DNA from: Pseudomonadota bacterium | GTDB lineage: Bacteria; Pseudomonadota; Gammaproteobacteria; Steroidobacterales; Steroidobacteraceae | Assembly (NCBI GenBank): GCA_025355105.1 | Contig: JANYAE010000058.1 | Location: forward strand, 1-64,000 | Direction of reading: 5' to 3' | DNA: 64,000 nucleotides | Part shown: piece after piece, positions 19,728-21,489 of the stretch | Layout of the letters: each line of letters opens with the position of its first letter | How positions within the stretch are numbered: the stretch's first letter is position 1 | Made by a program: the position numbers and the translations under genes | Notes under the pieces: generated by a model | The model's input: only the letters and a program-made list of their open reading frames with translations | The model's database searches: none | Told to the model about the DNA's origin: nothing

Positions 19728-19916
19728 GGCGCCGCCTGCGGTGTTCGACTCGGGTTGTGAGTACCTCTCGACCCTAATGCGTTAACCCCGGGGCATCTGT
19801 TTGCGACAACAGTGTGCAAGTCCGTCTCGAACGGAAAGCCTAAAGTGTTGCAGCACGCCCCACTTGTTGCTCTGGCTCGAGAGCAACGGCCCTTGACGGC
19901 ACAGGTGGGTGGCGCC
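19728..19916 (+). ncRNA. ssrS: 6S RNA
   Basis: Directly downstream of zapA; ~189 nt bounded by complementary GGCGCC ends; conserved-looking AAGTCCGTCTCGAACGGAAAGCCTAAAGTG resembling E. coli GGTCCGTCCGAGAAGCCTTAAAACTG, and CCTGCGGTGTTCG 5' segment. Confidence 0.85.
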
Positions 19917-19975: not shown

Positions 19976-20437
19976 ATGCAGTACTGGTTGATGAAGAGCG
20001 AGCCGAGCACCTTCGGCATCGACGATCTGGCGCAGGCGCCGCGGCGCCGTTCCCACTGGGACGGCGTGCGGAATTACCAGGTCCGCAACATGATCCGGGA
20101 CGACATGAAGCAGGGCGACCTCGCCTTCTTCTACCACTCGAGCTGCGAGCGACCGGGCATCTACGGCATCGCCCGCATCGTTCGCGAGGCCTACCCCGAC
20201 TCGACCGCGTTCGACCGGCGCCATGCGCACTTCGACCCGAAGAGCGATTCGGCGGCGCCGACCTGGTACATGGTCGACGTCGAACTCGTCACGCGCTTCG
20301 CGACGCCGATCAGCCTCGAGAAACTGAAGGCGAATGCGCCCGCGCTCGACGACCTGATCGTCGTGAAGCGCGGCAACCGTCTGTCGATCACGCCGGTCAC
20401 CGCGACGCAGTGGCGCAAGGTGAATGCGCTCGCGTGA
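19976..20437 (+). CDS. EVE domain-containing protein
   Basis: MQYWLMKSEPSTFGIDDL...W+GVRNYQVRNMIRDDMKQGDLAFFYHSSCERPGIYGIARIVREAYPD. Confidence 0.93.
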   Translation: MQYWLMKSEPSTFGIDDLAQAPRRRSHWDGVRNYQVRNMIRDDMKQGDLAFFYHSSCERPGIYGIARIVREAYPDSTAFDRRHAHFDPKSDSAAPTWYMVDVELVTRFATPISLEKLKANAPALDDLIVVKRGNRLSITPVTATQWRKVNALA

Positions 20438-20530
20438 TCGTGCGTCGCGCGCGTCGCGCGTGCGCGCAGTCACGATGCACTTGTGATGTGTGAACGGTGC
20501 ACGGTGCTAGCACATCAACGTTGTGCTTGC

Positions 20531-20558
20531 TTGTAATTTGACTTTTTGTGTATATACT
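20531..20558 (+). promoter_or_regulatory. Candidate promoter of the Lys/Ala-rich peptide gene
   Basis: TTGTAA, 16-nt spacer, TATACT in an AT-rich patch of an otherwise very GC-rich region. Confidence 0.45.
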
Positions 20559-20592
20559 CCGTCCTCGGACTAACCCGACATGGAGAACTACT

Positions 20593-20658
20593 ATGGCGAC
20601 GAAGAAGAAAGCTGCTAAGAAGAAGGCGACGAAGAAAAAGGCTGCGAAGAAGAAGTAA
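20593..20658 (+). CDS. 21-aa Lys/Ala-rich repeat peptide (histone H1-like), MATKKKAAKKKATKKKAAKKK
   Basis: ATG with GGAG 7 nt upstream; two 30-nt repeat units differing at only three, all synonymous, positions; flanked by promoter-like sequence and a hairpin. Confidence 0.65.
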   Translation: MATKKKAAKKKATKKKAAKKK

Positions 20659-20728
20659 GCCTTCGAAGCAGCCGGGGATCGAGGTCGGAAGGCCTCCGGG
20701 TCACCGACCAAGTCCCCGCTCTTCACTG

Positions 20729-20754
20729 ACTGTGCCCGCGAAAGCGGGCACAGT
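20729..20754 (+). terminator. Intrinsic-terminator-like hairpin
   Basis: Perfect ACTGTGCCCGC-GAAA-GCGGGCACAGT followed by CGTTT. Confidence 0.65.
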
Positions 20755-20829
20755 CGTTTCTGAATCCCGCACTTTCGCGCACTGCCCGGCGCGACCGCGA
20801 AAGGCCTTAAAACAGGGGGTTTCGCAACG

Positions 20830-21489
20830 ATGGCCGCCGATGATCAGAAGCGCGTCGCCGCCGAGGCGGCACTGGCCTACGTCCCCGAGGGCAGCGTCCT
20901 CGGCGTCGGCACCGGCTCCACGGTCAATCACTTCATCGCCGCGCTCGGCCGCAAGCGGATCCCGATCGCGGGCGCCGTGTCGAGCTCGGAGTCGAGCACG
21001 CGCCTCCTCAAGGCCGCGGGCATCGACGTCGTCGACCTCAACTCGAGCGGCGACCTCGACGTCTACATCGACGGCGCCGACGAGGCCACCCGTCACCTCG
21101 CCCTGATCAAGGGAGGGGGGGCGGCACTGACCCGCGAGAAGATCGTCGCCGCCGCATCTCGCCGCTTCGTCTGCATCGTCGACCGGTCGAAGCTGGTCGA
21201 CGTGCTCGGCCGCTTCCCGCTACCGGTCGAGGTGATCCCGATGGCGCGCTCCTACGTCGCGCGCCAGCTGGTCAAGCTCGGTGGCCAGCCGGTGCTGCGG
21301 GAGGGCGTGACCACCGACAACGGCAACGTGATCCTCGACGTGCACAACCTCGTGATCACCGACCCTCAGGGTCTGGAGACCGAGATCAACCAGATCGCCG
21401 GGGTCGTGGCGAATGGCTTGTTCGCGCGGCGCGGCGCGGACCTGCTGCTGGTCGGCACTGACGCCGGGGTTGACGTCATCCGGCCGTGA
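20830..21489 (+). CDS. rpiA: Ribose-5-phosphate isomerase A
   Basis: [62 protein letters not shown]. Confidence 0.96.

Follow-up and report, generated by a model that had tools for sequence, protein, structure and literature searches.

The analysed window is a stretch of 64,000 nucleotides, and the gene under study is a short open reading frame on its forward strand (20593–20658, stop codon included), the predicted product of which is the 21-residue peptide MATKKKAAKKKATKKKAAKKK, having 12 lysines, the other residues being solely methionine, alanine and threonine. The start codon is found 7 nucleotides after the Shine-Dalgarno sequence GGAG (20582–20585), which closes a conserved 5' leader, CGGACTAACCCGAC (20566–20585, forward strand). 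Further upstream is a promoter-type site, TTGCTTGTAATTT...GTGTATATACT (20527–20558, forward strand), in which TTGTAA-N16-TATACT (20531–20558) is embedded. Downstream of the stop codon there is a partly structured 3' untranslated stretch (20659–20727, forward strand) and a terminator-like hairpin, GACTGTGCCCGC-GAAA-GCGGGCACAGTC-GTTT (20728–20759, forward strand). The syntenic neighbours, on the same strand, are a gene for an EVE-domain protein (19976–20437; the name is from the first-pass annotation), belonging to a family conserved in the relatives, and an rpiA-like gene (ribose-5-phosphate isomerase A, named by sequence, 20830–21489). A 6S RNA (RF00013, 78.4 bits) is found at 19730–19915, just 5' of the EVE gene. 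The reading frame with its coordinates, the GGAG and the TTGTAA-N16-TATACT site are all as the first-pass annotation had them, and the two 30-nucleotide copies from which it described the frame as being built do differ at exactly three positions, each of them a synonymous third-codon position. The GNRA-capped hairpin that it placed downstream is also present, with a GAAA loop, but its stem has 12 base pairs (20728–20739 with 20744–20755) and not 11.

The composition of the reading frame is unusual when compared with its surroundings, the GC fraction being 0.455 in the frame versus 0.712 across the window. It is the single ATG-initiated frame of 14 to 61 codons in the window with at least 50% lysine, and among 100 windows simulated with its dinucleotide composition, none has an ATG-initiated frame with at least 50% lysine. 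A chance reading frame was considered as an explanation and rejected.

The region 20530–20770 is present at the locus in all same-genus genomes searched, with 79–95% DNA identity; the neighbouring EVE protein has just 64–77% amino acid identity in same-genus genomes. In the wider family, the gene was read in 113 genomes (30 family loci read first, 16 genomes, and 67 new genomes among 70 further loci), in which 110 closed, intact frames are found, with two frames cut off where a contig ends and a third interrupted by an assembly gap; the frameshifts or stops in relatives that the first-pass annotation had set against the gene are not seen in these genomes. The closed frames encode 14–28 residues, save one of 61 residues, and the intact frames are spread over more than 20 genera and more than 100 genomes. 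At each of the first 30 loci, a GGAG is closely followed by a frame for a lysine/alanine peptide of 15–26 residues with KKK at its end. Variants such as MAKAKKKAKKKAAKKK, MAAKAKKAKKKVAKKKAAKKK and MATKAKKSAKKKGGKKKAAKKK are found between genera, with the composition and the KKK end being kept. The short form is also carried by two loci named Steroidobacteraceae (L068 and L072), and by this association the family of the window is probably Steroidobacteraceae. Of 200 family genomes, 162 have the pattern of promoter and leader, almost always as a single copy; among the 114 high-quality ones the number is 107.

The pattern of nucleotide changes suggests that it is the peptide that is being preserved. 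The exact 21-residue peptide is encoded in 15 near relatives by 13 distinct DNA sequences, in which the 11 variable columns are all third-codon positions. By parsimony, 30 of 30 changes are synonymous, whereas 19–26% would be expected for random changes, although this count is partly circular, as these relatives were picked for having the identical peptide. The other five frames are not constant in the same 15 relatives, as 4–11 residues are altered in each of them, and an antisense reading frame was rejected because the minus-strand frames vary. In the two remaining close relatives the sole differences are the loss of one five-residue unit and synonymous codons elsewhere. In the family, a five-residue unit is gained or lost in frame, the length differences always being whole codons. 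The protein-level selection proposed in the first-pass annotation is thus borne out by the synonymous changes and by the variation of the other frames, and these data argue that the purifying selection on the peptide is strict.

This pattern also bears on the alternative that the conserved entity is a regulatory or small RNA, in which the reading frame is incidental or merely aids the stability of the RNA. The stretch 20560–20765 folds 5.7 SD better than its shuffled versions, and the leader and the hairpin are highly conserved, as such an RNA would require; nevertheless, the confinement of the changes in the reading frame to synonymous sites, and the variation of its length by whole codons only, are not what this alternative predicts. 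The 3' stretch, moreover, is not conserved between genera: 20659–20727 is partly structured and is conserved within the genus, with a few pair-keeping changes, and in other genera it is absent or different. As other sequence stands between stop codon and hairpin outside the genus, RNA structure at this place is not the common denominator of these loci. The Rfam search of the transcript gives no match, including for the 3' stretch, the match to mraW being far below the cut-off. An RNA-only function is, considering these points, highly improbable.

The flanking elements point to a gene that is transcribed by itself. The promoter-type site, in the form TTGCTTGTAAT...GTGTATATACT, and the leader, CGGACTAACCCGAC...GGAG, are conserved among the relatives, and the site in the window is the sole such site in the genome at the stringency used. 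The hairpin GACTGTGCCCGC/GCGGGCACAGTC is kept family-wide, with variants in which the pairing is preserved (for example, GACGAGGCCCGC/GCGGGCCTCGTC). The T-run that follows it is weak (GTTTCTG), which is why a simple terminator scan made no call. A second strong hairpin, TTTCGCTCGGCGGCCGC, is seen in many downstream stretches of the family. The conserved promoter, leader, Shine-Dalgarno sequence and hairpin are in agreement with the stand-alone gene suggested in the first-pass annotation, and the peptide gene looks like its own transcription unit.

A short lysine-rich reading frame followed by a terminator-like hairpin is also the arrangement of a leader peptide, in which translation of the lysine codons would control the hairpin and thereby the expression of rpiA, and rpiA is indeed found 3' of the peptide gene in 30 of 30 family loci tested. 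However, the hairpin folds alone rather than with the reading frame, the spacing between stop codon and hairpin ranges from 4 to 76 nucleotides, and rpiA is not a lysine-pathway gene, so that neither competing hairpins, nor a fixed spacing, nor a related downstream gene is found. The orthologs in other families, described below, have 94–209 residues, and in some distant loci more than 2 kb separates them from rpiA. Long orthologs, a hairpin that stands free and a spacing that is not constant all speak against a lysine attenuator, which is very unlikely. A dependence of the peptide gene on the EVE gene was looked for and not found: in one genus (g19, loci L247–L276) the EVE gene is near the peptide gene in 12 of 30 loci and rpiA in all 30.

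In other families of the order, the place 3' of the EVE gene and 5' of rpiA is occupied by a lysine/alanine repeat protein of 94–209 residues, composed of K, A, R, T, V and P. As a query for direct searching, a long form of 174 residues is insensitive because of its low complexity, and therefore synteny anchored on the EVE gene was used. Upstream of nearly all long forms there is a promoter-type site, TTGCTGGAATTT...TGTATATACTC, with a leader of the type CGGAC..ACCCGACACGGAG, and a GTGCCCGC/GCGGGCAC hairpin is found 3' of the stop codon in many, not all, of them. Three families (f7, f10 and f14) have no long-form gene at the place between EVE and rpiA. Among named gammaproteobacterial loci that are more distant, forms of 65–188 residues are found, some of these being the loci in which rpiA is more than 2 kb off. 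When the window gene is compared with the long forms (for example, those of genomes G037, G093 and G072), it has the same place between EVE and rpiA, a matching promoter and leader, lysine/alanine repeats and, in common with many of them, the terminator-like GTGCCCGC hairpin. It differs in lacking a repeat array of at least 94 residues, the long form being about 4 to 13 times longer than the peptide of the window and having repeat variants with Arg, Pro, Val and Thr.

In a tree of the EVE and RpiA proteins (73 loci, with identical ones merged, midpoint-rooted), the 37 short forms are one clade, with a support of 0.97, adjoining the long forms. Placement and shared flanks together indicate that the window gene is a contracted ortholog of the histone H1-like repeat protein, a relationship missed by the first-pass annotation. 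The 61-residue version, found inside the short-form family (L316, genome G284), is apparently a re-expansion, and the simplest history would be one contraction, followed later by this partial re-expansion. A gene that is the contracted version of a longer one could also be a decayed remnant, functionless by itself. This reading is contradicted by the selection data: the frame is intact in more than 100 genomes and more than 20 genera, under strict synonymous constraint and with a conserved promoter and Shine-Dalgarno sequence, and a remnant is scarcely credible.

The 21-residue peptide has no match among the Pfam and NCBIfam models. The best long form scores 37.4 bits against Pfam HC2 (PF07382), just under the cut-off of 40, and 20.1 against a cut-off of 80 in the NCBIfam comparison; the curated cut-offs of the HC2 family (PF07382, NF038052 and NF038053) are thus not reached, and no named family was found for the long form among the Pfam and NCBIfam models. 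The DNA-binding protein Hc2 is built of lysine-rich pentamers (PMC2848022), and chlamydial Hc2 (PF07382, NF038052) and the H1-like proteins of NF038053 have tandem lysine-rich pentamers that vary in number in frame, as does the peptide of the window, in whose family a five-residue unit is gained or lost; chlamydial Hc2, however, has 165–237 residues, and the window peptide 21. The first-pass annotation had likened the peptide to a free histone H1-like tail, and the HC2-like long orthologs at the EVE–rpiA locus lend substance to this kinship. Another comparison is with AlgP and PhaF of Pseudomonas, which share with the window peptide a disordered, lysine/alanine-rich tail; in AlgP, peptides of the KPAA-repeat tail bind DNA in vitro (PMC9239181). 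In AlgP and PhaF, however, the tail consists of KPAA tetrads and comes after an N-terminal domain that is folded or helical (for AlgP, PMC9239181), whereas in the window peptide the tail is the whole protein, having neither an N-terminal domain nor proline. Nothing relevant was found when the literature was searched for the peptide strings and for small bacterial proteins rich in lysine.

The comparison shows a constrained reading frame, a conserved promoter, leader, Shine-Dalgarno sequence and hairpin, and the orthology with the long form, whereas we infer that the gene is transcribed and translated, how abundant the peptide is, what it binds and what its biological role would be. The gene is genuine and kept throughout the family; it is probably transcribed independently, as a microprotein gene for a lysine/alanine peptide of 14–28 residues that is a contracted ortholog of the long form and acts as a polycation binding DNA, RNA or polyphosphate. 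In the ancestor of the family, the repeat array would have contracted until a few pentamer-like units were left (A-A-K-K-K, for example), and would then have been held under strict purifying selection. The product would be a short disordered polycation, which may bind DNA, RNA or polyphosphate by charge, in the manner of a free histone tail, and may thereby neutralise its partner and compact it loosely, but would not give the long-range bridging that is possible for the long form. That the peptide binds nucleic acid or polyphosphate is the leading reading, because the long form is HC2-like, Hc2 binds DNA and AlgP peptides bind DNA. A polycation of 16–21 residues would bind weakly at physiological salt, and the peptide would therefore need to be abundant.

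It is possible, though less likely, that the main partner is polyphosphate or ribosomal RNA instead of chromosomal DNA, in which case the peptide would not be a nucleoid protein. Lysine/alanine tails can bind any polyanion, and AlgP, which has a tail of this kind, is located at polyphosphate granules (PMC9239181), whereas the long orthologs are most like HC2, which is DNA-binding, even if this likeness is weak.

Weak matches of the long form in two same-genus genomes are to a SET-domain protein with a peptide-like tail. In the genome of the window a SET-domain (PF00856) protein is encoded outside the window (G000:C22:38437-38892), and others are at loci L317–L346. In one sample, 35 of 37 family genomes have a SET gene (34 with the Pfam model), and in a second sample 186 of 200 do (109 of the 114 high-quality genomes); in the order's other families such a gene is rare, with about 10 cases in some 150 genomes. 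Many of the 30 SET proteins that were read have basic, Lys/Arg-rich C-terminal tails, and a few (G012, G007 and G011) have almost none. The SET gene and the peptide gene are 30 and 38 kb apart in two single-contig genomes, and the median distance is 31 kb in 48 same-contig cases, a sample that is biased toward near pairs; in most assemblies having both genes on a single contig, they are about 30 kb apart. Some family genomes, such as G022, have the peptide and no detected SET gene. The co-occurrence does not count as evidence of interaction, being a single coincidence at the level of the lineage. One idea is that the SET-domain lysine methyltransferase of the family has the mini-peptide as its substrate, or as a partner bound to nucleic acid, in which case the peptide would be a minimal histone tail with its own writer; this is unlikely. 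The parallel is found in chlamydiae, and this precedent is itself disputed: a SET enzyme of Chlamydia pneumoniae is reported, in a study cited in PMC3980110, to methylate Hc1, whereas for NUE of C. trachomatis methylation of Hc1 was not seen (PMC2904774). If the link were true, it would be a compact bacterial pair of writer and tail.

The gene is short enough to be skipped by gene finders, and it is an example of a strongly conserved gene that is too short and of too low complexity for profile libraries, being revealed only by synteny and conserved flanks. It documents, in many genomes, a histone H1-like repeat protein that has been reduced to 14–28 residues and then frozen by selection. It thereby offers the study of polycationic tails in bacteria a natural minimal unit, as the whole peptide can be synthesised and the long and short orthologs can be swapped.
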